NCBI RefSeq assembly: GCF_000374085.1 | Contig: NZ_KB893549.1 | Span: 1-64,000 of the forward strand | Direction of reading: 5' to 3' | DNA length: 64,000 nt | From: Spirosoma spitsbergense DSM 19989 | GTDB lineage: Bacteria; Bacteroidota; Bacteroidia; Cytophagales; Spirosomataceae | Shown here: positions 27,905-58,076 of the stretch, piece after piece | How positions within the stretch are numbered: position 1 is the stretch's first letter | How the letters are laid out: each line of letters opens with the position of its first letter | The notes under the pieces: generated by a model | Seen by the model: only the letters and a program-made list of their open reading frames with translations | Database searches by the model: none | Told to the model about the DNA's origin: nothing | Made by a program: the position numbers and the translations under genes

Positions 27905-28918
27905 TTACCGACTGTTTTCGCTCCACTGCTCCTGCCTGAATACGAACGAATGTGCCTGCCGTGCCTGCTCCTTCGCTTCGCGGGATTTCTGGGCAAACTT
28001 TTCAGCCGCAGCCTTGTTGTCGCCTTCTTCAAAATGTTTGCTCGACTGATCCAGCAAAATAACCGTTTCTTCCAGCGCACGAATGCCTTTCCAGAACGAT
28101 TCTTCCACCACTTTGGTCGTTTCGGCCAGCAGCGAACTGGCCGTATAGGCATGACCGGTATGGCACCGGTAGCGGATGAGCTTGCCTTCCTTAATATTGA
28201 CCAGTACACCATTACACTCGGGGCAGGTAAGGGGAGTTAGTTCACCCATGTCTAATATACCCATATCGAAAGCGTTGTCCTGTGCGGCAATGTTTACTTC
28301 GGTTTCTAATTGCTTCAACTCCTCCGGCACCAGGTTTGGTTTGTCGGGTACCAACTCCGTAATCAGATCGCTCAACAGCATAGCCATTTTGGCCATAGGA
28401 ACAACAAAATCTACCGCTACATATTCCATTACGTGATTGGGCATACTGGCATACATAGCCTCTTCCGGCTCCTGAACGACGCAGATGCCGCCCAATCGCT
28501 TTACAGACCACATGCCCGATGTTCCATCATCGAGCATGCCGGTCAGCACAATGCCAATAACCCGGGGGCCGTAGGTATACGCTGCCGACCGGAACAGGGC
28601 ATCGATAGATGGCCGAAACCGGTTTTCCTTAGGCCCTTTTTTTACAATGACCTGGTCGTATTCAATCAGCAGGTGGTGATCGGGAGGGGCTATATAAATC
28701 CTGCCCGACTGAATAAGCTCCCCATCTTTAGGATGAACCGCTTTAAGTGGCCCCGCGTGGTTCAGAATTTCGGGGAGGTAACTCGGCGAATGCGGGGATA
28801 TGTGAACCACCAGAAAAATTGTTGCGTCGAAATCTGGCGGGAGCGATTTTGCTAACTCTTGCAGCGCATACACACCTCCCGCAGAAGCACCAATAACGAT
28901 AATATTACGTTTTGCCAT
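27905..28918 (-). CDS. Stand-alone CheB-type methylesterase with C-terminal zinc-ribbon and helical tail
   Basis: 337 residues with no receiver domain. The catalytic triad of CheB is intact: Ser12 (GASAGG), His39 (VVHISPHSP) and Asp131 (LTGMLDDGTSGM). After residue about 190 comes a helical linker, then LTCPECNGVL and RYRCHTGHAYTASSLL, which provide CxxC and CxxxH ligands for a likely zinc site, and a long helical C-terminus. CheB removes methyl groups from chemoreceptors, but no receptor, CheA or CheW is nearby. Its neighbour (divergent, 214 bp) is the CheB-CheR-PAS-kinase fusion, so both probably serve a non-chemotactic signalling pathway. Confidence 0.9.
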   Translation of the reverse strand: MAKRNIIVIGASAGGVYALQELAKSLPPDFDATIFLVVHISPHSPSYLPEILNHAGPLKAVHPKDGELIQSGRIYIAPPDHHLLIEYDQVIVKKGPKENRFRPSIDALFRSAAYTYGPRVIGIVLTGMLDDGTSGMWSVKRLGGICVVQEPEEAMYASMPNHVMEYVAVDFVVPMAKMAMLLSDLITELVPDKPNLVPEELKQLETEVNIAAQDNAFDMGILDMGELTPLTCPECNGVLVNIKEGKLIRYRCHTGHAYTASSLLAETTKVVEESFWKGIRALEETVILLDQSSKHFEEGDNKAAAEKFAQKSREAKEQARQAHSFVFRQEQWSENSR

Positions 28919-29132
28919 CCTATTGATTTTCTACGAATGCAGTTGACTGAGTAAAACTATATCTTTCTCCAGTGAGAAGGTGGAATAAAGAGAGAAATAA
29001 TTAGTTTACTTTTATATGAAGTTGTGTTGTTCGTAAATACGTGATTACGTACAATTTTAATTAACTAATTCTATCTTCGGAGGTTCTTAACAGTAACTGA
29101 TATACTGCCCGTTCGTTCGGTAAAATTTTGGA

Positions 29133-32100
29133 ATGGCAAAGGGAAAACATACGTCTGAACAGACTGAATCAACTGAAAATGAATTGCCTGTCATACCTGT
29201 CGTTGCCATTGGGGCATCGGCAGGAGGGATGGAATCTATGTTGGAATTGCTGGAAAACCTGTCGCCCGTTACGAACATGGCCTACGTCTATATTCAGCAT
29301 CTGGACCCCAATGCCCACAGCCATCTTACCCATATCCTGAGCCGGGCTACCGTAATGCCCGTTCGGGAAGCCGAAGACCAGTTGCGAATTGAGCCTAATC
29401 ATGTCTATGTCATTCCATCCAATCAGGATATGGAAGTGATGGATGGTGTGCTGGTGCTTTTACCCCGCCAGGCAGACGCCCGTCATATGCCAATCGACCA
29501 GTTCTTTATCTCGCTGGCTAACCGCCAGAAGGAAGCTGCGATTGCCGTAATCCTATCGGGTATGGCCAATGACGGGACGCTGGGATTCCGGGCCATCAAA
29601 CAGGCTGGTGGCGTTACGTTTGTTCAGAACGATACCGCCCGGTTTCAGAGTATGCCCAAATCCGCCATTGCCGAGGGCTTAGTCGACTGGGTTCTACCGC
29701 CTGCCGAAATTGCCCGGGAACTGGAACGGATAAGCCGGAAGCCCGAATTTTTTCAACAAACAGAACTGGCTGAAACCAACGAGGAAGCCGAAGCCGATGA
29801 GGATATAAAAGTAATTATTCAACTGGTCAGGAAGGCGGTTGGCGTTAATTTCAGTAACTACAAAATCACTACCATTCGCCGTCGCATTATCCGCCGGATG
29901 TTGCTCTTCAAACTGGAGACCCTGAAAGAGTACATTGCCTATATCCGGCAGCAACCGGAAGAAATGCCGCAACTTTACAGCGACCTGCTCATCAATGTCA
30001 CTACGTTCTTCCGCGATCAGGATACCATGACGTACCTGAGTAAAGTCCTGTTTCCCCGGATTATTGAAGAAAAAGCCCCGCGCGAACCCTTCCGTATCTG
30101 GGTACCCGCCTGCTCAACCGGGCAGGAAGCGTATTCGCTGGCTATGCTGCTGATTGAGGCACTGGGCGATAAGGCTTCGAGCGTTACTATTCAGATTTTT
30201 GCCACCGACCTCAGCGAAACAGCCGTGGCCAAAGCCCGGCAGGGAAGCTATACTAAGGGGGAGGTGATGGACGTATCGCCCCGGCGGCTACAACGATTTT
30301 TTACCAAAACGGATGATTATTACCGCATTAACCGGGCCGTGCGGGATTTATGCGTGTTTGCCCCGCATAATATCCTGAAAGACCCCCCCTTTTCTCGGCT
30401 CGACTTAATTAGTTGCCGGAACCTGCTGATCTATCTGGGCAGCGTGTACCAGCGCAAAGCCATTGCCATGTTTCACTACGGCCTTAACCCCAGTGGCTAT
30501 CTGTTGCTGGGGAAATCGGAAACGATTGGTAGCCTGACAGCACTCTTTTCTCAGATCGAAAAAAAATATAAGGTATATGTGCGTAAAAATGACGTTGTTA
30601 GCCGGGCATCGTTTGAGATGAGCCCCCGTTTTGGGTTCGACCGTTCGGGGTCGGAGACTGCGGAAGTGGACGAAAACAAGGTCAAAGCTGGCTCACCTGC
30701 CGATAGCAGACAACGTAACGCTGGCCTTAAAACTGATTTTCTGGTGGGTGATTTAGAGAAAATAGTCGATGAGTTACTGCTCCGTCAGTACGTACCCGCC
30801 AGCGTGGTGGTCGATAACGACCTGGATATCCTGCGCTTTCGTGGGTCGACCAGCATGTTTCTGGAGCCTTCACCTGGTAAAGCCAGCCTGAACCTACTCA
30901 AAATGGCCCGGCCCGCGCTGGTCTTTGAGTTGCGGAATACGGTTCATAAGGCCCGTCAGTCGGGCCAGCCCGTTCGTAAGTCCGGCCTGGAAGTGAAAAT
31001 TAAAGGGGTAGCGCATCAGGTAACTATTGAAGTGGTGCCACTCAACATGGATACGGAAAATCCGCTATACTTAGTGCTTTTTGAGGAAGTTGAAGCTACG
31101 CTGCCGTTAGAGGTCGATCTGACAGAAAAGCGGAATTTGCGAATAAAGCAACTGGAAGCGGAACTGGCCACCCTGCGTGATGACATGCGCTCCATTGTGG
31201 AAGAACAGGAAGCTAATAATGAAGAACTGCAATCGGCCAATGAGGAAATAATCAGCAGCAACGAAGAATTGCAGAGTATCAACGAAGAACTCGAAACGAG
31301 TAAGGAAGAAATTGAATCGACCAACGAAGAACTGCTGACCATCAATCAGGAATTGCAGGTACGCAACGATCAGCTCTCGGAAGCCAACGAGTTTTCGGAA
31401 ATTATTTTCGCTACCATCCGCGAAGCCACCCTGGTACTCGACGATAACCTGCGAATAAAGAGTGCCAACAAAACATTCTATACGCTCTTTCGGGTTGATG
31501 AAGAACAAACGGAAGGGCGGCTTATCTACGAAATCGGGAACCGACAGTGGGATATTCCCAAGTTGAGACTGTTGCTGACCGATGTGATACGGCGTAACAT
31601 TCAGGTCGATGCCTTCGAGATAACACATACCTTCGACAATATTGGCGAAAAAGTGCTGCTGGTCAACGCCCGCCGGGTTGTGAGGCAGGAGGAAGCCATT
31701 TTGCTGGCTTTTGAAGATATTACCGACCACCGACGGGCACAGCGGCTACTGGCCGAACGGGAAGCCTGGCTACACGACCTGGTCGATAATGCCCCCGTAC
31801 TCATCTGGGTATCGAATGCCGACGGGAAATACACCTTTTTTAACCGGGCCTGGCTCGATTATACGGGGCATTCGCTGGAGGAAACCATTGACCGGGGCTG
31901 GATGGAGGATATTCATCCCGACGACCGGCAGGCCTTCGTCGCTACATTTACCAGTGCCCTGGCAAAACGGCTACCCTTTCAACTGGAGTTGCGGCTAAAA
32001 CGCCATCAGAATGCCCTTCAGACCGAAGTCTTCCCGCCCGATGATTACCACTGGATGCTGATGAACGCCAGTCCTACATTTTTATCGGACGGCCGTGGCC

Positions 32101-33812
32101 AATTCTCGGAAAGCAGACTATTCGTTCACCCGGCAGGCGAACCGGCTGGTGTTTTTAGTGGATTTATCGGTACGTGTGCCGAAATTTATAGTCAGAAAAC
32201 CCTGATTCAGGCATTGGATCTGCGTGCCCAGCAGCGTATGCAAAAGGTGTTTTCAATCAATGCCATGGTTGTACATGCCCAGCAGGTGTTATCGCAAACA
32301 CAAGCCAGCGATGGCAGTCGTGAAAAGGCGCAGGAGAATCTGAAGCAGCACGAAAACGACCTGAAGCTGTTTGTCGATTCTACCTCCGACGTTATTACCC
32401 GCTGGTCGCCCGACCTTCGGTTGTTGTATGCTAACCCGGCCTTCGAGAAAATATGGGGTGTACCTGTTCATGAGCTGTTAGGGAAGACCAGTCAGGAAAT
32501 GGGCCAGCCTGTTGAAATAGCCCTGCCCTACATGAACAAGCTACAGCAGGTTTTTGACACGGGCCTGTTGCAAAACCATTATAATTCATTTCCAACGGCG
32601 GATGGCCTGGTTTATTACTATTCCCGACTGGTACCCGAACTGGATATGGATGGTTCGGTAAAAAGCGTGCTGGCTATTGCCCAGGATATTGGCAGTTTGC
32701 AGCTGGTGGAAGAAATTCAGCAAACAGCCGTCAATTTACAGGCTGTTCTGGATAGCTCGTCGGCCGCTATTGGTTTGCTGCAGGCCGTTCGTAACGAAAA
32801 GTATGAGCTTATGGATTTTGAACTGACGGTTTGCAACCAGCGATTTGCCACCATGGTTCGTCAGCCCATTGACCAAATGCCGGGTTTATCCCTGAAACAC
32901 ATGGCCGAAGCCTTGTGGCAGGATGGGACTTTTGATAACCTGGAAAAAGTGCTGCTTAGTGGCCAGCGAATGTACATCGAAAAGCAGGTGCAGCGCGAAG
33001 GCCGTGACCAGTGGATTGGCATGTCCATCACCAAACATAATGACGGTGTTGTGTTATCGGGGATGGATATTACGGCCCTCAAAAAAGCAGAACAGGATAA
33101 GAAAATCTGGCTAACCGAACTGGAACAATCAAGCCAATCGGTTGAAGTACTGGAGCAGATTCGGCAGCAGATGCAGGGCGAGTTTTTACGCTCTACCTCA
33201 CACGACCTGCGGGGTAATCTGGGCATCATTCAGGGAGCTGTTTCTATGCTGGATATGGCGGATACCGACGAGGAGCGAAACCAGATGATGGCTATGCTCC
33301 AGCGAAACATACGGCAGGCCACCCAGATGCTGACCGAACTGCTGGACTATTCCCGGTTGGAGGCCGGGCAGGAGGAACGTAATATTAGTTCGGTCAATAT
33401 CAATGAATTGATAGAGGCATTGGTAGACAGTGCCCGACCCCTGGCCGAGGAGCGTGGTTTGTGGCTGAACCACGAAAGTCCTGAAACCCTGGTTGTGGCT
33501 GGTGATGCCGTCAAGATTAGCCGAATTGCCCAGAATTTGCTGCTCAATGCCCTTAAATACACTCATAAGGGAGGAGTAACGGTAAGCTGGGGGGAACTGG
33601 ATGATGACAATTGGCAGTTTACAGTGACTGATACGGGGCCGGGTCTATTATGGCCGGTACCCAAAAAGGCCGCAGACACACAGGGCGAAGGAATTGGCTT
33701 GTTTATTGTCAGGCAGTTGTGCGAATTTCTTGGCGGGCGGGTATCGGTTGACAGTGAACCAAAGAAAGGTACCCGTTTTCAGGTAGTATTACCCCGGCAT
33801 TATTCCGATTAG
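29133..33812 (+). CDS. CheB-CheR-PAS-histidine kinase fusion protein
   Basis: 1559 residues. In order: CheB methylesterase with Ser29 (GASAGG), His56 (QHLDP) and Asp in LSGMANDGTLGF; CheR methyltransferase about 225-490 (TTIRRRIIRRM, NVTTFFRD, WVPACSTGQEAYSLAM, SCRNLLIYL); a long coiled coil about 660-750 with repeated NEEL/ELQS heptads; PAS domains at about 755-865, 875-1000, 1080-1190 and 1200-1320; then HisKA with phospho-acceptor His1357 (TSHDLRGN), and HATPase with N box (NLLLNALKY), G1 (DTGPGL) and G2 (GEGIGLFIV). No receiver domain follows; the single-domain receiver encoded convergently 21 bp away is the obvious partner. It is cytoplasmic, with no membrane helix seen. Confidence 0.93.
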   Translation: MAKGKHTSEQTESTENELPVIPVVAIGASAGGMESMLELLENLSPVTNMAYVYIQHLDPNAHSHLTHILSRATVMPVREAEDQLRIEPNHVYVIPSNQDMEVMDGVLVLLPRQADARHMPIDQFFISLANRQKEAAIAVILSGMANDGTLGFRAIKQAGGVTFVQNDTARFQSMPKSAIAEGLVDWVLPPAEIARELERISRKPEFFQQTELAETNEEAEADEDIKVIIQLVRKAVGVNFSNYKITTIRRRIIRRMLLFKLETLKEYIAYIRQQPEEMPQLYSDLLINVTTFFRDQDTMTYLSKVLFPRIIEEKAPREPFRIWVPACSTGQEAYSLAMLLIEALGDKASSVTIQIFATDLSETAVAKARQGSYTKGEVMDVSPRRLQRFFTKTDDYYRINRAVRDLCVFAPHNILKDPPFSRLDLISCRNLLIYLGSVYQRKAIAMFHYGLNPSGYLLLGKSETIGSLTALFSQIEKKYKVYVRKNDVVSRASFEMSPRFGFDRSGSETAEVDENKVKAGSPADSRQRNAGLKTDFLVGDLEKIVDELLLRQYVPASVVVDNDLDILRFRGSTSMFLEPSPGKASLNLLKMARPALVFELRNTVHKARQSGQPVRKSGLEVKIKGVAHQVTIEVVPLNMDTENPLYLVLFEEVEATLPLEVDLTEKRNLRIKQLEAELATLRDDMRSIVEEQEANNEELQSANEEIISSNEELQSINEELETSKEEIESTNEELLTINQELQVRNDQLSEANEFSEIIFATIREATLVLDDNLRIKSANKTFYTLFRVDEEQTEGRLIYEIGNRQWDIPKLRLLLTDVIRRNIQVDAFEITHTFDNIGEKVLLVNARRVVRQEEAILLAFEDITDHRRAQRLLAEREAWLHDLVDNAPVLIWVSNADGKYTFFNRAWLDYTGHSLEETIDRGWMEDIHPDDRQAFVATFTSALAKRLPFQLELRLKRHQNALQTEVFPPDDYHWMLMNASPTFLSDGRGQFSESRLFVHPAGEPAGVFSGFIGTCAEIYSQKTLIQALDLRAQQRMQKVFSINAMVVHAQQVLSQTQASDGSREKAQENLKQHENDLKLFVDSTSDVITRWSPDLRLLYANPAFEKIWGVPVHELLGKTSQEMGQPVEIALPYMNKLQQVFDTGLLQNHYNSFPTADGLVYYYSRLVPELDMDGSVKSVLAIAQDIGSLQLVEEIQQTAVNLQAVLDSSSAAIGLLQAVRNEKYELMDFELTVCNQRFATMVRQPIDQMPGLSLKHMAEALWQDGTFDNLEKVLLSGQRMYIEKQVQREGRDQWIGMSITKHNDGVVLSGMDITALKKAEQDKKIWLTELEQSSQSVEVLEQIRQQMQGEFLRSTSHDLRGNLGIIQGAVSMLDMADTDEERNQMMAMLQRNIRQATQMLTELLDYSRLEAGQEERNISSVNINELIEALVDSARPLAEERGLWLNHESPETLVVAGDAVKISRIAQNLLLNALKYTHKGGVTVSWGELDDDNWQFTVTDTGPGLLWPVPKKAADTQGEGIGLFIVRQLCEFLGGRVSVDSEPKKGTRFQVVLPRHYSD

Positions 33813-33833
33813 CCAAACAGGCAATTATGAACG

Positions 33834-34289
33834 CTACCTGTATTTTGGTAAGGTAACAGCATTCCACCAGTAATGCCGGAACGAACCAATGCAATCGAGC
33901 CATTTCTGGTAATGGGTAGGCTTTACAATGTATGAGTTAATCCGAAGGGAATACGATTCTGCAATATCCTCTTTATCATTGGACTGGCTAAGCATAATGA
34001 CGGGTATTTCGCGGTACAGGTAATGGGTTTTAACCGCTTCCAGTAAACTCCAGCCCTGTTGCCGGTCGGGTAGGTATAAATCCATCAGGATCAGCCTGGG
34101 CAACGAAAGCTTTTTCTCGCAGGATTCCAGATAGACAAGTGCTTCCGTTGCTTCCCGCGCCCAGATGGCCTCTACTTCCGGAAACTGCTGTTGAAGTGCC
34201 CATCGAATAATGAACCACTGATCGGCATTATCCTCAACAACGAGAATTTTAGCTTTACGTGATTTTCGGGTAGTTGTCGTGCTGTTCAT
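33834..34289 (-). CDS. Single-domain response regulator (receiver only)
   Basis: 151 residues from ATG 34289 (a TTG two codons upstream is less likely). AKILVVEDNADQWFIIRWAL supplies the acidic pair, Asp70 in LILMDLYLP is the phospho-acceptor, MLSQS the switch Ser, and YIVKP the conserved Lys. Nothing but a short tail follows, so output must be through protein contacts, as with CheY or Rcp1-type regulators. It converges on the CheB-CheR-kinase gene with 21 bp between stops, which suggests it receives phosphate from that kinase. Confidence 0.9.
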   Translation of the reverse strand: MNSTTTTRKSRKAKILVVEDNADQWFIIRWALQQQFPEVEAIWAREATEALVYLESCEKKLSLPRLILMDLYLPDRQQGWSLLEAVKTHYLYREIPVIMLSQSNDKEDIAESYSLRINSYIVKPTHYQKWLDCIGSFRHYWWNAVTLPKYR

Positions 34290-34480
34290 GAACAATAGAG
34301 ATAGTAGAGTATGTGAACATACACCATTTCTACTAAAAATAAAACTAATGTATGTTCTTTTTTTATTTTAAAAACTCCTGATTGACAGGCAGTAATTGGC
34401 AGTTTCATGGAGATGATGAAGCCGCTTTTCCCCGTTCGTGCCCGAAACCGATTCGTGCAAATCCTGCAAAAAAAACCGGT
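34290..34480. other. Intergenic segment upstream of the lone receiver gene
   Basis: About 190 bp with no recognisable gene; AT-rich around 34320-34375, probably the promoter region of the receiver gene. Its right boundary at 34481 is the exact start of the duplicated 198-bp segment. Confidence 0.5.
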
Positions 34481-34678
34481 TTTCATAAAACTACCTGCTG
34501 CGCAAACAAACGTGTTTACACAGCAGGTAGACCAAGTTTCTGATGTTACTTATCGTCTTTCAGCGTCGAAAGGAAGCTGACCACATCCCGGATTTCCCGC
34601 TTTGTCAGCAGGTACTTCATTTCGGGCATGCTGGATGGCGAGTTTATGCGTTTGGCAATCTGGTTTTTCGGGATGGCA
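34481..34678 (-). repeat. 198-bp direct repeat copy A: duplicated 3' end of the dehydrogenase/cytochrome c gene
   Basis: This stretch matches 37811-38008 with six substitutions in 198 bp and no gaps. It contains the last 43 codons of the large cytochrome gene in an unbroken frame (differences: Gln to Pro, Leu to Ile, Glu to Asp) plus its stop codon and terminator hairpin. It begins 9 bp after the stop codon of the histidine kinase, so the kinase transcript would run into this borrowed terminator. Together with copy B it brackets about 3.1 kb of unrelated DNA. Confidence 0.92.
34491..34530 (-). terminator. Terminator hairpin (copy A)
   Basis: Stem CTACCTGCTG (34491-34500) with CAGCAGGTAG (34521-34530), inner part partly paired (AAAC/GTTT). 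On the minus strand it is followed by TTTTATG. Identical to the hairpin at 37821-37860. Confidence 0.75.
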
Positions 34679-34687
34679 GTCCTATGG

Positions 34688-36673
34688 TCATTCTGTCGTA
34701 ATAGGTAACTTTATCGTAAACGCTGTCTCTTCACCCGGTATGCTCTCCATGGTCAGTGTTCCCCCATGTCCCTTGTCGATAATGTCATAACTCAATGACA
34801 GTCCCAACCCCGTTCCTTCGCCTGTGGGCTTGGTGGTGAAAAAGGGTTGGAAGATTTTGGCTTTCACCGCGTCGCGTATACCCGTGCCGTTGTCCCGTAC
34901 CTGAATCTCTACCGTTTGCTCCCTTCGTTTAGTACTTACCCAAATGAAGGGTTTATACGTTGGTTGAGTATCCTGGCTTTTTACCCGTTCCCCAACGGCG
35001 TAGAAGGCGTTATTGAACAGGTTGAGCAGCACCCGCCCAATCTCCTGAGGAACTACCTCAACCAAGCCCAATGTGGGGTCGAAATCAGTGGTTAGTTCGC
35101 AGTTAAGCTCCTTGTTTTTAACGCGAAAGCCCTGATAGGCCAGCCGTAAATACTCATCGGTTAAGGCGTTCAAATCGGTAGATTGTCGTTCGCCGGTGCT
35201 GGTACGGGAATGTTCCAACATGCCTTTGACGATGCTACTGGCCCGGCTGCCGTGGTGGGTGATCTTCTGGAGGTTTTGTTTAAGATCCCCCAGCAGTTCG
35301 TTTTCAAAGTCGGCATCCCGGTTGGGCTTTTGCTGTTCTTCCTGAAGTTCATCGACCAGTTCGGTTGACACTTCGGAGAAGTTATTGACGAAGTTTAATG
35401 GGTTCTGGATTTCGTGGGCAATACCCGCCGTGAGCTCGCCCAGACTGGCCATTTTTTCAGATTGTATGAGTTGGGTCTGAGTAGATTTTAGTTTTGATAG
35501 TGTTAATTGTATTTCTTCGTTTTTACCTTGTAAAATTACATTTGCCTTCTGTTTTTGGTGATTATTTCGCAAGAGAAAGAATGCAACTAACAGTAACATG
35601 CCTAAACCAGTTAATAGGGTATAAAGCTTATATTGATTTTCTTTTTTAATCCTTTCAGTTTCAATTCCACGTAGGCGATGTTGCTCATTAAAAAGTGTTT
35701 TTTGTAGTTCCTGAACTTTCTTTGCACCATATAGTTCGTCATTAACTGACATCGCCAACTGTAAATAGTAATTTGCCAATTTAAGGTCTTTATGATAATA
35801 AAGTTCTGATAATAATTTACTTATTTCTAATATATTTAATTTGTAACCAATCGCTTGTGCATCAAAAAGTCCTTTTTTTGCATAGTATATAGCAGAATCG
35901 GGCTGGCTCATTTCCTTGAAAAAGAAAGCCATGAATTTATAAGCATCACTATTGGTATTTTGGTCATTATTCTTTTTAAGTAATTCAATGCTTTGATGTA
36001 AGTAATTTAAGGCTATCTGGCGTTTACCCTGTTTAAATATCACTTCTGATAAATACGTTAAAGCAACTGGGTGCATTATTTTATCTGTTGATGTTAAATC
36101 GTAATTTTTTTTCAAATAAATAAAAGCAGAATCTAATTTATTTAATTTTGAATAGGAAGTGCCAATAAATAAGTTTATCAAAATGCTTAAGTCATAATAC
36201 TTCTTGTCATTTTTTATAGTTTCATTAAGTCTAAGCCCTCTTTTACAAAAAATAATTGATTGGGGGTAGTCCTTTAAATTCCAGTAAACATCACCAATAT
36301 TCTCAAGACACAAGGCTGTTTCAAAAATGTAGTGCTTTTCTTCTGCTATTTGTAACGCTTTATACAATAACTCCAATGATTCTGGTATCTCCCCTTTTTG
36401 TCTTAGCGAACTACTCAAACCAGCCAGAGTTCTCACTTCACCCCTAAAAAAATTAATTTTCTGTGATAATAATAACCCTTGATTGCCAAATATAACAGCG
36501 GAATCAACATTGAAATAATGATATAAATCACACAGTTCTACTAAAATTAAGACTTCGCTGGTATCATTTTTAGTACTAGCTAATGCGTGTTTTAAACTGT
36601 CTATTCGCCTGTCTTGTGCAAAGCCAAAACTACAGATAACTGCAAGAAAGAAGGTAAAGCTTAGTTTTTTCAC
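34688..36673 (-). CDS. TPR-sensor histidine kinase
   Basis: 661 residues from GTG 36673. A signal peptide (MKKLSFTFFLAVICSFGFAQ), TPR-like helical repeats in residues about 30-320 (EIPESLELLYKALQIAEEK, LDSAFIYLKKNYDL, RQIALNYLHQSIELLKK), one membrane helix about 350-370 and a coiled coil. HisKA has His420 (GIAHEIQNPLNF), and HATPase shows GRVLLNLFNNAFYAV, DNGTGI and GEGTGLGLSLSYDI. The TPR part should be periplasmic and the kinase cytoplasmic. The first 390 codons are conspicuously AT-rich, whereas the kinase half has normal composition. The GTG overlaps the TGA of an upstream kinase remnant, suggesting former translational coupling. No response regulator is adjacent. Confidence 0.88.
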   Translation of the reverse strand: MKKLSFTFFLAVICSFGFAQDRRIDSLKHALASTKNDTSEVLILVELCDLYHYFNVDSAVIFGNQGLLLSQKINFFRGEVRTLAGLSSSLRQKGEIPESLELLYKALQIAEEKHYIFETALCLENIGDVYWNLKDYPQSIIFCKRGLRLNETIKNDKKYYDLSILINLFIGTSYSKLNKLDSAFIYLKKNYDLTSTDKIMHPVALTYLSEVIFKQGKRQIALNYLHQSIELLKKNNDQNTNSDAYKFMAFFFKEMSQPDSAIYYAKKGLFDAQAIGYKLNILEISKLLSELYYHKDLKLANYYLQLAMSVNDELYGAKKVQELQKTLFNEQHRLRGIETERIKKENQYKLYTLLTGLGMLLLVAFFLLRNNHQKQKANVILQGKNEEIQLTLSKLKSTQTQLIQSEKMASLGELTAGIAHEIQNPLNFVNNFSEVSTELVDELQEEQQKPNRDADFENELLGDLKQNLQKITHHGSRASSIVKGMLEHSRTSTGERQSTDLNALTDEYLRLAYQGFRVKNKELNCELTTDFDPTLGLVEVVPQEIGRVLLNLFNNAFYAVGERVKSQDTQPTYKPFIWVSTKRREQTVEIQVRDNGTGIRDAVKAKIFQPFFTTKPTGEGTGLGLSLSYDIIDKGHGGTLTMESIPGEETAFTIKLPITTE

Positions 36674-37258
36674 GTTCGATTAGTTTTCATAGGTAATGTA
36701 ATAACAAATGTGCTTCCTTCACCGTCTTTCAACTTCCAGTAGGGCTTTCTTATAAAATCTCGTAGGGATGTAATCTTTGTAGAATTGGGCAAGTACGGTC
36801 CCGGAGAACTCCGTAGGAGTGATATCTTAGTGTAGAGATGTCACTCCTACGGAGTTCTTGGAGGGAGATGCGGGGTTATCATGTACAAAGATGTCTCCTC
36901 TATGAGGTTATGAAGTTTTATAAGAAAACCCTGTAACTTCCAAAGTACTCCCGTGACCTTTGGTGATAATGTCATAACTCAATGACAGTCCCACCCCTGT
37001 CCCGTGCCCTGTGGGTTTTGTGGTGAGAAAGGGCTGGAATACTTTGGCTTTTACCGTGTCGGGAATGCCCATACTATTATCACGTACCCGAATGTTCACT
37101 ATATTCTTCCTTCCTCTCGTACTCACCCAAACGAGGGGTTTATACGTTTCTTCAGGTAGCCCACTCACGGCCAGTTACCCAATCGCCTGGAAGGCATTAT
37201 TATGTAGATTCAACAACACCCGGCCTATCTCCTGCAATTGCTGGGTTGAGCGTTGGAA
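36670..37258 (-). pseudogene. Second histidine kinase, HATPase remnant interrupted by a MITE
   Basis: On the minus strand from about 37258: QEIGRVLLNLHNNAFQAIG, a TAA stop, then PEETYKPLVWVSTRGR, VRDNSMGIPDTVKAKVFQPFLTTKPTG, GTGVGLSLSYDIITKGHGSTLEV. After a 196-bp insertion comes KDGEGSTFVITLPMKTNRT and TGA at 36672-36670. It is clearly a paralogue of the intact kinase next door. It lacks the sensor, HisKA and membrane parts, has an internal stop, and the frames either side of the insertion do not match even after removing it. It is non-functional as a kinase. Confidence 0.88.
36731..36942. mobile_element. MITE-like palindromic element with 8-bp target duplication
   Basis: The element occupies 36739-36934 (196 bp) and is flanked by perfect direct repeats AACTTCCA at 36731-36738 and 36935-36942. 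Its ends are inverted repeats of about 21 bp (GTAGGGCTTTCTTATAAAAT against ACAGGGTTTTCTTATAAAAC on the other strand). A nested pair ATCTTTGTA/TACAAAGAT and a central 17-bp perfect palindrome (36806-36822 with 36841-36857, GAACTCCGTAGGAGTGA) lie inside. No ORF is present, so it needs a transposase from elsewhere. It splits the HATPase remnant. Confidence 0.88.
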
Positions 37259-37810
37259 TACACTGGTCCTTATTCGTAGCGCCAATGAATACCGTCTGGG
37301 AACGAAACGCTACGGAGTATACAGCCCAAGCCGCCAGCCGGTACTGCCCTGGTTGAACGTAGTCAGTAAAACCGGACGGACAATATTCCTTATTTTTAGG
37401 TGAAACGGGCATTAGATTTCAGGCCAAATGTGTTCGTATTTAGGCCATTGGCTACAAGTTAGTAGAATGGAACTGAGAATGTATATCTATTTCCTAACTA
37501 CAGCATGCTGACTTCTACTGCCCTTTTGTATGAGTTTGATCCTGAGTTATTTAGGTAATAATACTTGCCTGATTAATTGGTTGCACGCGCTGAAAAACAA
37601 AAAAACTTGAATTCTGAAAGTAGCCTGCTCACGTTATTTTGACTATCTCTATCGGTAGATCAGGTGGTATGGAATTAATTGGGCGAGCCGACTTTATAGG
37701 TTCCCTACAGGGCCGAATCAAGAAAATACGTGCCGTCATATGGGGTACTAATCAGGCGTTCGGCTGGCAGACACAGCAAGAGGGTGTGACTCATACCGAA
37801 CAAACCGATC
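37259..37810. other. Unassigned DNA between kinase remnant and repeat copy B
   Basis: About 550 bp with no gene I can name. The left part is open on the minus strand (includes QYRLAAWAVYSVAFRSQTVF), overlapping in another frame the kinase remnant, and may be a fragment of another gene. CGTAGCG (37275-37281) and CGCTACG (37308-37314) form an inverted repeat. A 49-codon plus-strand frame at 37669 (MELIGRADFIGSLQGRIKKI) is unrecognised. It looks like decayed or imported DNA. Confidence 0.45.
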
Positions 37811-38008
37811 TTTCATAAAACTACCTGCTGCGCAAACAAACGTGTTTACACAGCAGGTAGACCAAGTTTCTGATGTTACTTATCCTCTTTCAGCGTCGAG
37901 AGAAAGCTGACCACATCCCGGATTTCCCGCTTTGTCAGCAGGTACTTCATTTCGGGCATGCTGGATGGCGAGTTTAGCCGTTTGGCAATCTGGTTTTTCT
38001 GGATGGCC
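37811..38008 (-). repeat. 198-bp direct repeat copy B (in the intact gene)
   Basis: The original counterpart of copy A (34481-34678): the last 44 codons of the cytochrome gene plus downstream terminator. Beyond 38008 the two sequences diverge abruptly, as they do before 37811. Confidence 0.92.
37821..37860 (-). terminator. Terminator hairpin (copy B)
   Basis: Same 10-bp stem CTACCTGCTG/CAGCAGGTAG as at 34491, 16 bp after the stop codon of the dehydrogenase/cytochrome gene, followed by TTTTATG on the minus strand. Confidence 0.75.
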
Positions 38009-41000
38009 CTATCGGGCTGGTCACCTACTTTCACGTTCACCTCCGTAGCTGTTTCGTTCTGCAAAATACCACTGACCGTTTTTCCGTTTTTGAGCGTCAG
38101 GTTTACCGTACCATAGCCCGGAGCCAGGCGGGCACTGGGGTTAACCAGGGCTTCCAGAAGTTGGTCGCGGGTGAGTCGGCTGGCCACCCCGTTCAGGCGG
38201 GGACCGGCATTGCCGCCCAAATCATCGTAAGAATGGCAACGAATGCACTGGGCCGTCTGATGCCGGAAGAAGATACGCCGACCTAAATCCGGCTCACCAC
38301 CCAGCAAACTCCCTTTGTACGTAGCGGCCAGCGCATCGGGCGATAGTTTAGCCGTTATGGCTTTGTAGCGGGCGGTTAGTTTGGGGGAGTGCGCATTGTC
38401 AATGGCTTCTTCCAGCTCCAGCTGGAGTTCGGGCGACAGGGTACCCGCCGACATCTTGTCCAGCAACGGATCGAAGGCTTTTTGCGAATTGACAACGGGT
38501 AGTTTACCCAGCGTGAGCAGGGCGGCCTGTTTTTCTTCCGTTGTGCGATTGTTGATTACCTCCGACAACAGGGTCACCATGCGATCTTTGGGCATGTTCG
38601 ATTTAGCCAGCAAATCCAGCCCGGCTACCCGAACGCTTTTTTCATTATCGGCCAGGGCCGTTTCGATGGCTTTACTGACGTTTTTATCATTCATCGACGC
38701 CAGTGTTCGCAGAGCCGCCACCCGCACAACGGGTTCTTTATCCGTTTCCAGCCGACTGAACAACGGTTCGGACGCACTCGTCAGGTTCAGCTGGGCAATT
38801 GCCTTGATGGCACTCAGCCGCAGCGTCTTCTCCGGATGGGATAGCAGGTTGGTGTACAGGTCAGCGGTTTTGCTTTTAAGCAGGGCCGGATCGCGCTCAA
38901 TAACGCCCCGATAGCGCCCATCAACCCGGTCCAGCACCGACGGTTTAGCCCAGGTACTCAGGGCTTCCAAGGCTTCGGCCCGCATCGCCAGCGGACTGCC
39001 TTCCTGCTGGGCGTAGTCGATCAGGATTTGCATGGCTTCCGGCGTACCGACCCGCAGGTTTGCATTGATTGACCGGCGGAGCAGGGCTTCGTTCGTGAAA
39101 CTCGTCTTTTGCATCACCTTACCCAGCGCAGGCAGGGCGGCCGGAATGGACAGGTCATCATTGATACCCCGGGCCGCTTCGGTCACGATAAATTCGTCTT
39201 TATCGGCCAGAAAAGCCGCGATGCCCGGATCACTCATGCGCCGAAGGGCCACCACGGCCGCAATGCGAACCCCACGAGACGGGTGACTGGCCAGCGCCAC
39301 AACGGGGGCCGCTTTGCCAATACGGGCCAGGGCCAGACTCCCCGCATGTCGAATGTAGGCGTCCTCGTCATTGTTGGCCTCCAGCAGTTGAATAATTGGT
39401 TGAATGGCCGGTTCATAGGCAATACGCCCCAGTGCTTCAGCGGCAAAGAACCGCGCCCGGCTGTTCGCGTCTTTCAATAAGGGCATCAGAGCCGCACCCG
39501 CTTCTTTATAGCGAATGTCGCCCAGCCATTTAGCAGCCTGCGCCCGAATTTCCGGGTCGCTGTCCTGCAATAAAGGCAGTAGCAGCGTGGCGTATTGCTT
39601 ATCCTGCCGGGCCAGTTGGCTAATGCCCCAGATGCCGTGAACACGAGCCAGTTGATTATCGGTCTGTTTGGTGGAGGTCGTAAACACAGCGGCTCCTTTC
39701 TGCCCCCGTTTCGCCAGTTCGAACTGCGCTTTCTGCCGAACCCGCATGTCCGGGTTCTTCAATAACTCGCCCAAATCGGTTTCGGAACGGGTTCCAAATT
39801 TTTCGGCCAGCAATGTTTTAGTACGCTGCCGGTCGGCCCAGGCGGCTCCTGCCTTATCATCCATTTTCCAGATGCGGCCATAGTCTTTGGCATCCCAGCC
39901 ATTTATCCAGTCGGCTATATACAAGGCACCGTCGGGGCCAAAGTCGATACCGGTTGCCAGCACATTACTCAGAATCTTTTTCTGTTCGCCGAGTTCAAAC
40001 GAAGCACCCTTTGGCTTTAGCTTGAACGCATGAATACCCGATTTGGCGGGATTACCCACAAATTCGGCAACGAAAAAGGTGTTTTTATAGGCCGGACTCA
40101 GGGCTGTTCCCGGATTGTAGCGCATACCCGCCGGGCCACTCACGAAGTTGGCAATGGTAGGCGTGATGTAGGCCGCCTGCCCTTCGAAGCGGGGCTTGTA
40201 CATCTGCTCATCCATCCAGACCTTATAGGTATTGTTGTTTGGGTCGCGGTATTTGCCGTACTGCCAGTTGCTGCGCCAGCCCGTATCGGAGCCGTTTGTG
40301 ATATACACCAGCCGCTCTTTTTCGCCCGGATGGTCGCCGTCGTTATCCTCGCTGATGAGGTTGCCGTATTCATCAAAAATGAACTCGTGGGTGTTCCGGA
40401 CACCGTGGGCAAACACCTCAAAATCGCTGCCATCGGGGTTAGAACGCACAATAACGCCACTGTTGGGGTGTTCCCACTTTTTCCCGTCCGGTCCTTTTCC
40501 ACTGAAACCAATATCGCCGATCTGCCAGTAGATTTTACCATCCGGCCCCATCTCGATACCCGACATGCCGTGACCGCCAAAGCCTACGTGAATACCATAG
40601 CCGTGCGAAATTGACGTTTTTGTTTCGGCAATACCGTCCCCGTCCTTATCCTGCATCCGCCACAAATCGGGGGCTACGGCTACGTACAGATCATTACCAT
40701 TGATCATAACGCCCCCGGCCACGTCGGTCACTTCATCATGGAAATCATCGACTACCAACTGCGACATATCGGCAACGCCATCGCCGGAAGTATCTTCAAT
40801 GCGATAGACGTTTTCTTTCTCGACGGTCATATCCCGCCAATCGTGGGAGCCATCCCCGTTCAGGTCTTTCAGCCACTCATTTTTCTTGCTGTTTGCAGGC
40901 GCCAGTACCCGGTGCAGGAAGGCCCGTTTGTCTTCGATGCTTTGCAGGTGATTCGATTCGATTTCCCAATCCTGGTGCCCCCGGATGTCGAATTCTGAAT

Positions 41001-41304
41001 TCTTCTGCCGGTTTGTCCGGGTATAATAAAGCCGGCCATTATCGTCAATGTCAATGGCAATTGGGTCGGCCACCAGCGAATCCACGCCCCACACATTCAG
41101 GGTTAGCCCGTCGGCCAGTTCGGGGGTTACCGTGGCTTCAATTTCTTTGGCCAGCTGAGCGGCTTTTTCGGGCGCCATGCGCTTGATACGCCGGTCGATA
41201 GGGTCTTTTGCTGTTTGATAGCTGACTGAAAAAAGCAGGGGAGCCAGGGCGAAGAGCCAGATGACTTTCTTGTTTTTCAGTAAACGCAGGTTTCCTTTTT
41301 TCAT
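37876..41304 (-). CDS. Membrane-bound dehydrogenase-like beta-propeller with HEAT repeats and cytochrome c domain
   Basis: 1142 residues. A signal/anchor helix (VIWLFALAPLLFSVSYQ) leads into a PQQ/sugar-dehydrogenase-like beta-propeller (about 60-500) with DxDxDG calcium loops (DLNGDGSHDW, DTSGDGVADM, DKDGDGIAE) and FAHGVRNTHEFIFDEYGN. Residues about 520-960 are HEAT repeats (DSDPEIRAQAAKWLGDI, DANSRARFFAAEALGRI, DNEKSVRVAGLDLLAK). The C-terminus is a cytochrome c with heme site CIRCHSYDDLGG and axial methionine candidates (SSMPEMKYLL). This PVC-type architecture is widespread in Planctomycetes and Bacteroidota and probably oxidises a sugar or sugar alcohol in the periplasm, passing electrons to its own heme. 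Its 3' end is duplicated at 34481. Confidence 0.9.
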   Translation of the reverse strand: MKKGNLRLLKNKKVIWLFALAPLLFSVSYQTAKDPIDRRIKRMAPEKAAQLAKEIEATVTPELADGLTLNVWGVDSLVADPIAIDIDDNGRLYYTRTNRQKNSEFDIRGHQDWEIESNHLQSIEDKRAFLHRVLAPANSKKNEWLKDLNGDGSHDWRDMTVEKENVYRIEDTSGDGVADMSQLVVDDFHDEVTDVAGGVMINGNDLYVAVAPDLWRMQDKDGDGIAETKTSISHGYGIHVGFGGHGMSGIEMGPDGKIYWQIGDIGFSGKGPDGKKWEHPNSGVIVRSNPDGSDFEVFAHGVRNTHEFIFDEYGNLISEDNDGDHPGEKERLVYITNGSDTGWRSNWQYGKYRDPNNNTYKVWMDEQMYKPRFEGQAAYITPTIANFVSGPAGMRYNPGTALSPAYKNTFFVAEFVGNPAKSGIHAFKLKPKGASFELGEQKKILSNVLATGIDFGPDGALYIADWINGWDAKDYGRIWKMDDKAGAAWADRQRTKTLLAEKFGTRSETDLGELLKNPDMRVRQKAQFELAKRGQKGAAVFTTSTKQTDNQLARVHGIWGISQLARQDKQYATLLLPLLQDSDPEIRAQAAKWLGDIRYKEAGAALMPLLKDANSRARFFAAEALGRIAYEPAIQPIIQLLEANNDEDAYIRHAGSLALARIGKAAPVVALASHPSRGVRIAAVVALRRMSDPGIAAFLADKDEFIVTEAARGINDDLSIPAALPALGKVMQKTSFTNEALLRRSINANLRVGTPEAMQILIDYAQQEGSPLAMRAEALEALSTWAKPSVLDRVDGRYRGVIERDPALLKSKTADLYTNLLSHPEKTLRLSAIKAIAQLNLTSASEPLFSRLETDKEPVVRVAALRTLASMNDKNVSKAIETALADNEKSVRVAGLDLLAKSNMPKDRMVTLLSEVINNRTTEEKQAALLTLGKLPVVNSQKAFDPLLDKMSAGTLSPELQLELEEAIDNAHSPKLTARYKAITAKLSPDALAATYKGSLLGGEPDLGRRIFFRHQTAQCIRCHSYDDLGGNAGPRLNGVASRLTRDQLLEALVNPSARLAPGYGTVNLTLKNGKTVSGILQNETATEVNVKVGDQPDRAIQKNQIAKRLNSPSSMPEMKYLLTKREIRDVVSFLSTLKEDK

Positions 41305-41635
41305 ATTGAATGAACGTTAACGGGTATTATTGCCAGCAACCGGGTTGGACTTATCGATATATAACGAATTGTTCAGGCTGATTACCTGCTTTCAAAGGAA
41401 AAAAAAACAGGATGTTACTTTAAAAAGGAGATAATAATATACCGGAATCGGCACTAAGGACAGTGTTGATACAGGAAGTATAGGCTACCGTTCCAACACG
41501 GTACAATCTGTATGGAATACGGCAGGACTCTACCGTATTTATAACAACTGGGCCCTGTAGTGGTTATTATTAGTAATGAAAGCAGTCTGTTACCACTAAG
41601 CAGACATACGCTCCCTTACTACGAATACTACGTTC
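41305..41635. other. Divergent intergenic region with two small hairpins
   Basis: 331 bp between the divergent dehydrogenase and YihY genes, without a gene. Two short inverted repeats stand out: TACCG/CGGTA at 41486-41502 and AATACGG (41517-41523) with CCGTATT (41533-41539). They could be operators or part of a leader RNA. Confidence 0.45.
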
Positions 41636-42691
41636 ATGCCTAACCTACTGAAACGATTCTACAAGGGATTATTCGCCGATTCAATTCCGCTACCGATGCC
41701 CACTAATACGACTAATACTCCTGAAAAACCTGCCAGTGAGACCGAAGGATTCTTTGCCAACGCCAAAGTTATATTGAGCGACTCATTCAGCGGTTTCATG
41801 GATGACCGCTGCCTGAAGATGAGTGCGGCCCTGGCCTATTATACTATCTTTTCACTGGCCCCGCTGCTGGTGCTGATTATGTCGCTGGCCAGTCTTTTTC
41901 TGGGTGAAGAAGCCATTCGTGGTGAGCTTTTTGGCCAGCTAAGCGGACTGCTGGGAAATGAAGCGGCCGGACAGATTCAGACCATGATCAAGAATATGGA
42001 ATTGTCCGGCAAAACGACGTCTGCCCTGGCCATTGGCGTCGTTACCCTGCTGCTTGGTGCTACCACTATTTTTATTGAGATTCAGGATTCGGTAAACCAG
42101 ATATGGCGGGTGAAAGCCAAACCAAAACGGGGATGGCTCAAGCTGCTAAAAGACCGGCTACGGTCATCTTCTCTGGTTGTCAGCCTTGGTTTTTTACTGT
42201 TGGTGTCGCTGGTTATCAACGGTATTGTGCTGGCCCTGAGTGAGCAGATAAACCGGTTATTGCCCGGATTAGGCGTTTATATTATTAGTGCTATCAATTT
42301 TGCGATCAGCACGGCTGTTGTTACGGTACTGTTTGCCGTAATATTCAAAGTACTGCCCGATGCGAAAATTGCCTGGAAAGATGTGCGCTGGGGTGCCATT
42401 TTTACAGCCTTACTTTTTATGCTTGGCCGCTATCTGATCGGGTTATATATCGAGACCACCGGCACTGAATCGACGTATGGAGCGGCTGGTTCGCTCATCG
42501 TTATTTTGACCTGGATATACTACATTTCGGCCATTCTGTATTTTGGGGCCGAGTTCACACAGGCATATGCCAATAATGTTGGTGCCCGGATTGAACCGGC
42601 CGACCACGCTGTGTACATAGAACGAACCGAGCGGGAACGCGAAGTATCCGTAATTCCTACACAAAAGAAAGCAGCGGAAGCCAGCAAATAA
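41636..42691 (+). CDS. YihY/virulence factor BrkB family membrane protein
   Basis: 351 residues with about six membrane helices. Family signatures include KVILSDSFSGFMDDRCLKMSAALAYYTIFSLAPLLVLIMSL (split over residues 41-80), IEIQDSVNQIWRVKAKPKRGW, and GRYLIGLYIETTGTESTYGAAGSLIVILTWIYYISAILYFGAEFTQAYA (split). Once thought to be RNase BN, these are now considered transporters or envelope proteins of unknown substrate. A long soluble N-terminus precedes the first helix. It ends in a bidirectional terminator. Confidence 0.88.
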   Translation: MPNLLKRFYKGLFADSIPLPMPTNTTNTPEKPASETEGFFANAKVILSDSFSGFMDDRCLKMSAALAYYTIFSLAPLLVLIMSLASLFLGEEAIRGELFGQLSGLLGNEAAGQIQTMIKNMELSGKTTSALAIGVVTLLLGATTIFIEIQDSVNQIWRVKAKPKRGWLKLLKDRLRSSSLVVSLGFLLLVSLVINGIVLALSEQINRLLPGLGVYIISAINFAISTAVVTVLFAVIFKVLPDAKIAWKDVRWGAIFTALLFMLGRYLIGLYIETTGTESTYGAAGSLIVILTWIYYISAILYFGAEFTQAYANNVGARIEPADHAVYIERTEREREVSVIPTQKKAAEASK

Positions 42692-42709
42692 GTCTCTGCT
42701 GGCTTCCGC
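42674..42709. terminator. Bidirectional terminator between YihY and ACP-like genes
   Basis: Perfect 13-bp arms GCGGAAGCCAGCA (42674-42686) and 42697-42709, loop 10 bases. It overlaps the last codons and the stop of the YihY-family gene and faces the converging ACP-like gene. Confidence 0.75.
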
Positions 42710-42716
42710 GCGCTGC

Positions 42717-42998
42717 CTAAGCAGCCACTTTTCTGGTCATCAGGGGTAACGGCGTAATACCTTCCGGTTTGTATTGGGCAATGAGGGAGCAAAGGTGCTC
42801 AACCGTCAGGGTAGGAACGAGCACTTCGTCGGGTAGAGTCATGCCAAATAATGTTTCCAGGTGCGCCACAACTTCCATAAACTCCCATTCATTGAGTCCA
42901 AGGTCCCGTTGTAGTTGCTCACCGGGCGCTATATCGGCACTTTTCAGGGTAAATGTACGATTGAGAAAATGGCGGAGGTGGGTGTAAACGATTTGCAT
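42717..42998 (-). CDS. Acyl carrier protein-like, without phosphopantetheine serine
   Basis: 93 residues from ATG 42998 (MQIVYTHLRHFLNRTF). The four-helix ACP pattern is recognisable: SADIAPGEQLQRDLGLNEWEFMEVVAHLETLFGMTLPDEVL (split), LTVEHLCSLIAQY. In true carriers helix II begins DSL/DSV and the Ser carries the 4'-phosphopantetheine. Here the motif is LGLNEWEF, with Asn-Glu in place of Asp-Ser, so it should not be modified at the usual site. It could be a structural or regulatory paralogue. No fatty-acid or polyketide gene is nearby. Confidence 0.7.
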   Translation of the reverse strand: MQIVYTHLRHFLNRTFTLKSADIAPGEQLQRDLGLNEWEFMEVVAHLETLFGMTLPDEVLVPTLTVEHLCSLIAQYKPEGITPLPLMTRKVAA

Positions 42999-43659
42999 GA
43001 TAGTAGCATTTTTCAATGATGCATGTTTTATTCGTATTACGATGATTGTCGGTCGTGTTTTAAATCCTGCTTCCCTGTTTTTGTTATTTTGTATTTCTTA
43101 AGGGGGTAAAAACACAGTTTCTGGAAATCGTAATTCCTTTGTAAATACATACGTCAACAACGTTCAATCTGTTGCAGTTCTCAATTAAAATAGAATTAAA
43201 CTACTTTTTTGCTTAATAGTTAAGTCAAGTTATTCAATAAGTAGTTTTCCTTATATCCGTTGATGGGGAAGGTTGGCAGAAACAAAAATAATTTCAGTAG
43301 AAACCTTCAGCCATTCCCCCATGAATATGGCGTGGAAACAGGTTGATGATTTGGCTGAAGGGCTTTTTTACAGGCTTGCGAACGAACATATCCCGAGCCG
43401 CAACAGCAGGCAAAGATTGCGCTGCCGGCGCGGTACTTTCCGTGCTGTTACGGCTCGATCAACGGTTTTCCTGACGTTTCGGCGACCCACTCCTGACCGG
43501 TGTAGCTCCTGTCCACTTCCGGCGGGTAATCCGTTTAGATACGTTAGCCTGGCATTCTGCGGTTGTTATAGCCGACTGTTGCCTGGGTTCCACCATTTCT
43601 TCATTAGGTAACGTACGCAAACGGGTACTTTCTATCCGTCTTTTAGTTCGAATAATTAC
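42999..43659. other. Intergenic region with a possible terminator; no gene identified
   Basis: 661 bp. 43017-43260 is AT-rich and holds the promoter side of the ACP-like gene. CCTTCAGCCA (43304-43313) pairs with 43352-43361 and is followed by six T bases (43364-43369), like a plus-strand terminator with a long loop, though no plus-strand gene precedes it. The minus strand from 43659 to about 43290 is open apart from one TGA, in frame with the peptidase stop, but its translation looks like no protein I know. Confidence 0.45.
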
Positions 43660-46143: not shown

Positions 46144-46215
46144 TGATGAGTGATGAGAATGAATAATGGAAGGCCTGAAATTAGGAAGAAAAGGTCGAAA
46201 CGCTTACTTTTCGGT

Positions 46216-46551
46216 ATGAAATCCCCCATCAATCCGGTAATTGAGCCTATTGTCCGGGAGTTTAAAGCCACGCTGCAAACTCTGTACGGCGACTGTCTGC
46301 GCGATGTTGTTCTGTATGGTTCCTATGCCCGTGGTGACTATGATGAGGAGTCGGACATCGACCTAATGGTCTTGCTAAACGACGATAAGGTGAATACCTA
46401 CGCAGAGATACGCAGAATTGCCGAAGTGGAAACAGCATTTTTGTTAAAATTTGGACTTGTTATTTCCCCTTTCCCCGTAGCCTATAAAAAGTACAGTGTG
46501 TCGTATCGAGGAGTGTATCAGGAGGCTCGCAAGGATGGATTAATTGTATGA
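46216..46551 (+). CDS. MNT-type nucleotidyltransferase, likely antitoxin of a HEPN/MNT pair
   Basis: 111 residues from ATG 46216 (MKSPINPVIEPI); the frame is open 22 codons further but without protein-like sequence. The minimal nucleotidyltransferase motif GSYARGDYDEESDIDLMV (about residues 34-51) holds the GS and the DxD metal ligands. Its last codons overlap the start of the HEPN gene (ATGA at 46548-46551), so the two are translated together. In characterised pairs the MNT protein neutralises the HEPN RNase by AMPylating it (family knowledge). Confidence 0.85.
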   Translation: MKSPINPVIEPIVREFKATLQTLYGDCLRDVVLYGSYARGDYDEESDIDLMVLLNDDKVNTYAEIRRIAEVETAFLLKFGLVISPFPVAYKKYSVSYRGVYQEARKDGLIV

Positions 46552-46937
46552 AGGAACAAATAAAGCGTTTTGTTGAACGTGCCGAAGATGCACTGGGCGA
46601 TGCCCGTCATTTGTATCAGAATGAACGGGTACTGGCAGTAGCCAACAGGGCCTATTATACTGTCTTTTACTGCGTTTGTGCATTGCTGGCCTCGGAAGGA
46701 ATTTACCCGGATAAGCATCAGACAGCACGGGCAAAGTTCAGTGAGTTCTTTATAGAAAATGCTCGTTTCGACGTGCAGGCCAGTAAAATTGTAGGAAATA
46801 GTTTTGCTGCCCGTCAGGCTGCTGATTATGACCTGGATGCTTTCATAAGTGATGCCGAAGCCCGGTTACTACTTGATGATGCTAAAACCTTTTACGACCT
46901 TACGCTGACTTATTTTGCCCAAAATCCGGTAGCCTGA
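46548..46937 (+). CDS. HEPN domain protein, likely toxin of a HEPN/MNT pair
   Basis: 129 residues, all-helical. The HEPN core is seen in FVERAEDALGDARHLYQNER, VANRAYYTVFYCVCALLASEG and RQAADYDLDAFISDAEARLLLDDAKTFYDLTL (split). The ANRAYYxxFY segment is typical of the UPF0332-like HEPN branch. The R-x4-6-H active-site motif of HepT RNases is not obvious, so activity is uncertain. It overlaps the nucleotidyltransferase gene by four bases and ends within a terminator stem. Confidence 0.82.
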   Translation: MKEQIKRFVERAEDALGDARHLYQNERVLAVANRAYYTVFYCVCALLASEGIYPDKHQTARAKFSEFFIENARFDVQASKIVGNSFAARQAADYDLDAFISDAEARLLLDDAKTFYDLTLTYFAQNPVA

Positions 46938-56218: not shown

Positions 56219-56349
56219 CGGGTAGTCGGGTATGATTTTTGCCCGGTGTTTGCTGGTTTTATTATGTGTAGATCGGCTAAACGGTAAATACTGTGCGTTA
56301 GCCCGAATGAGTATAGACTTGTGTTGTCAATCTATAGTATATTGATCGA

Positions 56350-57993: not shown

Positions 57994-58003
57994 TGAGCGA
58001 AAG

Positions 58004-58069
58004 AGCGAAAGAATGAAAGAGCAATATGGCTCTTGAAATTTCGCTCTTTCACTCTTTCATTCTTTCGCT
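58004..58069. repeat. Hairpin of GAAAGA-type repeats between DUF1800 and DUF1501 genes
   Basis: 18-bp perfect arms 58004-58021 (AGCGAAAGAATGAAAGAG) and 58052-58069, loop 30 bases. Each arm is a purine- or pyrimidine-only near-repeat (GAAAGA). It ends 8 bases before the DUF1501 ATG and so could mask its ribosome-binding site. Confidence 0.75.
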
Positions 58070-58076
58070 TTTTTCT

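Follow-up and report, generated by a model that had tools for sequence, protein, structure and literature searches.

The stretch of DNA analyzed (hereafter the window) comprises 64,000 nucleotides of Spirosoma spitsbergense DSM 19989 (contig NZ_KB893549.1, positions 1 to 64,000), and the feature studied in it is a 3.1-kb segment that carries an intact sensor histidine kinase gene (kinase A) and is enclosed by two direct copies of the 3' end of a cytochrome gene. Relative to the closest relative compared (genome G011), the segment is an insertion that duplicated this gene end. As a first-pass annotation of the sequence had described, each copy (unit 1 and unit 2, Table 1) holds the end of the cytochrome gene and its terminator, namely the last 43 codons and the stop codon followed by a terminator-like hairpin. 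Unit 2 is this stretch in place on the intact gene; unit 1 is without a gene body and lies on the same strand as kinase A, whose stop (34688) precedes it. The copies are 97% identical, with a spacing of 3330 bp. Six mismatches are scattered over 197 bp; the annotation had counted six differences over 198 bp, and base 198 is itself a seventh mismatch. It had also called the repeat ends sharp, but the left edge is slightly less so: a gapped self-alignment extended the pair to 34470-34677 / 37799-38007 (95.7% identity), and in an anchored test this leftward extension of ~11 bp was equalled by 3 of 300 shuffles.

Two copies, and no further one, were found in the genome assembly (7.55 Mb, 237 contigs). 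A survey of self-repeats (at least 85% identity, spacing <15 kb) covered 447,059 bp, about 6% of the genome, on 5 of the 237 contigs, two of them complete. The 197-bp pair was the sole direct repeat of such size in the surveyed DNA, the other 3 matches spanning 87-109 columns at spacings of 467-660 bp, so that nothing there points to a recurrent mechanism. The repeat cannot be put down to chance. The likelihood that the pair arose in assembly is close to negligible: a draft of this many contigs would allow it, but each copy runs into unique DNA at either end, and the six scattered differences argue against the assembly duplication that the annotation had itself raised as a danger to its reading.

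The site without the segment was seen in G011, which is about 14% diverged. Positions 28002-34677 of the window align to positions 16434-9692 of locus L023 in G011, and positions 37875-43212 align to positions 9824-4413, each at about 86% DNA identity. Because the two flank alignments overlap in L023, G011 holds a single unit with the flanks joined and the 3.1-kb segment absent, as had been predicted for a relative lacking the segment. The gene end was present in 34 of 36 genus genomes (that of the window included; 15 first-look candidates scored per genome), with no match in G020 and G025. Two unit copies occur solely in the genome of the window, and a single copy occurs in all 33 of the other genus genomes with the gene end (extra unit matches in G005, G016 and G021 were of 28-43 bp only); relatives carrying both copies, which the annotation had considered, were thus not encountered among the 36. 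The gene behind the cytochrome gene varies, and the left neighbors seen in the window are shared by one of the loci of 8 relatives (L023-L030), that of G011. Both copies might instead be ancestral, with G011 having lost the segment through recombination between them. Loss through a 197-bp repeat would be easy, but the units share a terminator version that is absent from G011, they are 3% apart as against 0.30 at the gene's fourfold sites between the species, and one copy is found in 32 further genomes as well, so that gene conversion must be invoked; we regard this account as very improbable.

G011 carries the unit 2 base at five of the six differing positions and the unit 1 base at the remaining one. 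Three of the six differences change the encoded residue, and the encoded peptides accordingly differ at 3 of 44 codons. With G011 as the one source of polarity, unit 1 seems from these bases to be a drifting, idle-looking copy. The terminator part is identical in both units and differs from that of G011 by substitutions and indels. Since this shared version is unlike that of G011, both units derive from the window's species or one very near to it. At fourfold sites of the cytochrome gene, the difference between the window's species and G011 is 0.297 (Jukes-Cantor 0.378). An insertion that postdates the split from G011 is supported, with G011 as the sole basis. Five changes in 197 bp, set against about 0.19 per lineage, suggest that the event belongs to about the most recent eighth of the time elapsed after that split. 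The estimate is crude, and it would be an upper bound had the donor been a slightly different strain.

Table 1. Features of the segment, its flanks and related repeats (window coordinates unless a locus is named).
Feature	Position	Strand	Description
CheB/CheR/PAS/kinase hybrid	29133..33812	+	left flank, present in G011 too
Response regulator	33834..34295	-	left neighbor of the cytochrome gene in G011 too
Unit 1	34481..34677	-	displaced cytochrome gene tail (last 43 codons, stop, terminator), downstream of kinase A
Terminator-like hairpin, unit 1	34491..34530	-	18 pairs, two of them G-U, then TTTTATGAAA; fold z -6.6
Kinase A	34688..36673	-	intact 661-aa sensor histidine kinase: TPR sensor, HisKA, HATPase_c
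Kinase B remnant	36674..37234	-	C-terminal HATPase_c part only
MITE-like insertion in kinase B remnant	36741..36936	.	196 bp, terminal inverted repeats, internal hairpin, AACTTCCA on both sides
Outer-membrane beta-barrel gene remnant	37239..37358	-	N-terminal region; 52.5% over 40 aa to L079 13458-13577
Conserved upstream motif	37422..37446	.	GGCCAAATGTGTTCGTATTTAGGCC; 25 bp, also given as GGCCNAATGNGTTCGTNTTTAGGCC
Unmatched end of segment	37448..37810	.	363 bp without a relative
Unit 2	37811..38007	-	same stretch as unit 1, in place at the 3' end of the intact cytochrome gene
Terminator-like hairpin, unit 2	37821..37860	-	identical to the unit 1 hairpin, behind the cytochrome gene
Cytochrome gene	37876..41304	-	1142-aa PVC-type haem-binding, HEAT-repeat protein, intact
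Further MITE-like family members	L084 2781-2976; L085 4944-5136; L086 4804-4999		

The cytochrome protein is 96.5% identical to its G011 counterpart and is unharmed by the insertion. The hairpin with the TTTTATGAAA that follows it is likely a terminator. This assignment was made on the predicted fold, as terminator patterns in 33800-38100 numbered 4 against a shuffle mean of 3.7, which is no excess. Each repeat unit ends ~10 bp beyond the hairpin stem, and in unit 1 the hairpin lies 158 bp beyond the stop of kinase A on the same strand. The first-pass annotation had suggested that the kinase transcript, too, stops at the repeated terminator, and this arrangement makes that plausible; kinase A would then have gained a ready-made, second-hand predicted terminator on its own strand, and possibly also the upstream motif described below. 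RNA-mediated copying was considered, since the repeat stops ~10 bp after the stem of the terminator, and was dropped because it needs a prior transcript of segment plus unit.

The segment had been described as full of remnants and foreign in composition. The kinase A open reading frame, which is intact, takes up 1986 of its about 3130 bp, and the rest is partly remnants. The composition claim holds for the sensor half of kinase A, with a GC content of 0.307, but not for the other parts (0.42-0.50 vs. 0.51 for the window). The kinase core has a GC content of 0.495, with a sharp step near residue 390, and the lowest-GC interval of 1173 bp in the window falls in the sensor half. Among the matches listed, kinases of the genus were about 70-72% identical to the core in DNA over stretches of 740-770 bp and up to 84% identical in shorter ones, and the kinase cores of the same genome were 67-72% identical. 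The sensor region returned only fragments of 31-62 bp in the DNA search. At the protein level (8 candidates scored per genome), the best sensor matches listed were 41-44% identical and came from other genera of the family, as against 36% for the best full-length match in the own genus. Trees were midpoint-rooted, and in the core tree, whose bootstrap had not settled, the kinase A core fell inside a group of 37 rows (90/96), most of them from the own genus. The cores of the kinases with the nearest comparable sensors (L090, L092, L093, L094) formed part of a separate group of five (95/90). In the sensor tree, the kinase A sensor grouped with L090 from another genus and L103 from the own genus (82/96). 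Kinase A is likely a hybrid, judging from these sequence comparisons, with an AT-rich TPR sensor joined to a core of the kind found in this genus. Rows of histidine kinase genes were seen at L080 and L081, with cores similar in DNA to that of kinase A and sensors mostly without a match; exchange of kinase cores is possible. Among the literature matches listed for Spirosoma and histidine kinases, no title concerned a kinase array.

Upstream of kinase A lies what appears to be a decayed operon. The reading of the kinase B remnant ends in a stop that overlaps the GTG start of kinase A, which is operon-like, and the remnant is 77% identical to the kinase A core over 211 nt. It is interrupted by a repeat resembling a miniature inverted-repeat transposable element (MITE), flanked by AACTTCCA. 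The family to which this repeat belongs measures about 196 bp, with ends like CAGGG/CCCTG, which we take to be reminiscent of the ISAs1 family, and with flanking duplications of 8-10 bp; relatives at 88-89% identity occur in the own genome, and weaker matches in 5 other genus genomes. The gene in G005 matched by the beta-barrel remnant (on L079) encodes 807 aa with the Pfam domains CarboxypepD_reg and OMP_b-brl_3 and is an outer-membrane beta-barrel, and in that genome (region L079 7201-13778) it stands directly before a two-component propeller kinase gene. The order of motif, barrel gene and kinase is the same in the window and in G005, and on this ground the barrel and kinase B remnants are read as fused by an internal deletion, with several kb apparently lost between them. 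The 25-bp motif (GGCCAAATGTGTTCGTATTTAGGCC, or GGCCNAATGNGTTCGTNTTTAGGCC) occurs at 3 places in the 36 genomes, two of them in G005 (L079 7140-7164 and 13867-13891), where a barrel gene and a DUF3500 gene are preceded by it, and is possibly a regulatory site. The 363-bp end of the segment beyond it was compared with 221 other family genomes, with 3 candidates scored in each, and nothing matched it.

Elsewhere in the window, a nucleotidyltransferase and HEPN gene pair at 46150-46934 is likely an MNT/HEPN toxin-antitoxin, and a protein with a PemK/MazF-like toxin domain is encoded at 62523-62906. Two adjacent DUF1800 genes (74-85% DNA identity) followed by a DUF1501 gene at 54581-59585 form a tandem gene duplication.

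The first-pass annotation had offered two origins, a single crossover or an element that integrates at a gene's 3' end, and had proposed a search for an integrase or for a plasmid carrying the same segment. No integrase or transposase domain was found in the window's 46 predicted genes (at least 110 aa) or in three shorter open reading frames, and the segment's own open reading frames held no replication or mobilisation domain. No tRNA and no Rfam match was found, the phage collection gave none with the segment, and matches in the plasmid collection were confined to the kinase core. Neither terminal inverted repeats nor insertion sequences bracket the segment, the sole MITE-like repeat lying inside the kinase B remnant, and a contig scan of the genome returned two distant loci only, both irrelevant. 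The single crossover stays among the candidates, while an element with its own recombinase is unsupported, given the lack of an integrase or transposase, a tRNA, a phage match and a second user of the site in the genus. Such an element, reduced to a remnant, would have used the gene 3' end as its attachment site and supplied a replacement 3' end, and the anatomy is alike, with the gene end duplicated and the gene restored. Yet no second unit copy was seen in other genus genomes, and 197 bp is long for an attachment site; together with the empty searches, this makes the element remnant a highly improbable source. A transposon target-site duplication was ruled out, since 197 bp exceeds the size limit of such duplications and the ends lack terminal repeats.

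Our best reading, which is held tentatively, is a single event of insertion by homology-facilitated illegitimate recombination after the split from G011. The inserted surplus of 3.33 kb would correspond to the segment plus one unit. DNA from a close relative would have entered, carrying the 3' part of the cytochrome gene, its terminator and then the decayed operon ending in kinase A. At one end, it would have recombined with the host cytochrome gene by a homologous crossover; at the other, ~10 bp past the kinase A stop, it would have been joined illegitimately, 43 codons before the old end of the host gene. The host's old 3' end (unit 1) would thereby have been pushed behind the incoming DNA, the cytochrome gene would have stayed complete by taking over the incoming 3' end (unit 2), and kinase A would have been placed upstream of a ready-made terminator. 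Two junctions are new in the product: 34677/34678, which falls within the old gene, and 37810/37811, directly past the terminator. The homologous side of the insertion is the duplicated gene end, 97% identical. We infer that the incoming DNA came from outside the genome, that the donor already had junction 37810/37811, and that 34677/34678 is the illegitimate junction. ComEC-type and DprA-type proteins are present in the genome and thus permit DNA uptake, though they are common (10 of 14 and 11 of 14 control genomes, respectively).

Several observations weigh against this reading. No match to the kinase A core or sensor was found beside the cytochrome gene at 27 loci in 19 other genomes (E 1e-8), where the flank available was 1.5 kb or less at 19 loci and about 9 kb at 8, and no strains of the same species were among the genomes; L024 and L027 had other kinase-like matches. 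Microhomology at junction 34677/34678 was not demonstrable (133 of 300 shuffles scored as well), and no switch in identity to G011 was seen along the cytochrome gene in 300-bp bins. The six differing sites also vary among 18 further relatives listed. At junction 37810/37811, the right end of the segment has a short similarity to its own intergenic left flank, with a score reached by 3 of 300 (strict) or 1 of 300 (lenient) shuffles, as compared with 48 and 14 of 300, respectively, when it was set against the G011 flank; this right-end homology amounts to short similarity only. Integration of a circle, moreover, predicts the same product.

That last point belongs to the single-crossover (Campbell-type) explanation, in which a circle, or an end-joined linear molecule, with both the segment and a unit recombined through the 197-bp homology. 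It yields exactly what is seen, two direct copies around an insert and an intact gene, but it requires a prior circle bearing unit and segment together, and the segment is on no plasmid or phage in the two collections (plasmids matching the kinase core only) and encodes no replication or mobilisation domain. We consider it a serious but unlikely contender. The similarity at junction 37810/37811 would suit template switching within the genome, or a tandem duplication followed by deletion, with the unit copied twice and the kinase DNA taken from the same genome. This junction lies 10 bp from the 18-pair hairpin, a plausible site of fork stalling, and 3 of 300 shuffles resemble the left flank as well. 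A source is, however, absent from the assembly: the sensor half of kinase A occurs there once, as does the 363-bp end, an argument against their having been copied from another place in this genome, and the cores listed reach 67-72%. The genome being a draft, the source may have been lost, and an origin within the genome is judged improbable.

The case looks like an ordinary, legible scar of gene acquisition by recombination with no visible mobile element. Its value lies in its good preservation, with empty site, displaced gene end and undamaged host gene all still recognizable; known ideas on how such insertions arise are unchanged. That gene 3' ends with strong terminators are recurrent docking sites for incoming DNA in the genus is a conjecture to which we give very little credence; if it were true, newcomers would arrive between two terminator copies, transcriptionally insulated, and the host gene would be spared. 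Insertion-duplication (single-crossover) integration brackets the insert with direct repeats of a gene fragment, as is seen here, but no vector or replicon part was found. Islands integrated by tyrosine recombinases at gene 3' ends likewise duplicate the 3' end and restore the gene; here, by contrast, no integrase was found, the repeat is long, and the site was not seen in use in relatives. In homology-facilitated illegitimate recombination in naturally transformable bacteria, a non-homologous insert also stands beside a homologous anchor, with one homologous and one illegitimate junction and no need for a recombinase. The present case differs in that the event is old and natural, its illegitimate junction is placed without shown microhomology, and no donor was found. 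The mechanism is also reported for conjugation in Escherichia coli (PMC3240628). Pneumococcal transformation, too, creates duplications, through pairing of donor repeats, but these measure about 100 to 900 kb (PMC3784515). Homology-facilitated illegitimate recombination has been proposed for displaced 3' ends in type VI secretion system clusters of Vibrio cholerae and for 'orphaned' Rhs 3' regions (PMC5361080). There, as proposed here, a conserved gene serves as anchor for the incoming DNA, and its old 3' end is shifted behind the new genes. Those gene ends are variable, however, and the displaced immunity genes are retained, whereas in the present case the peptides encoded by the two ends are almost the same and the displaced end seems idle.

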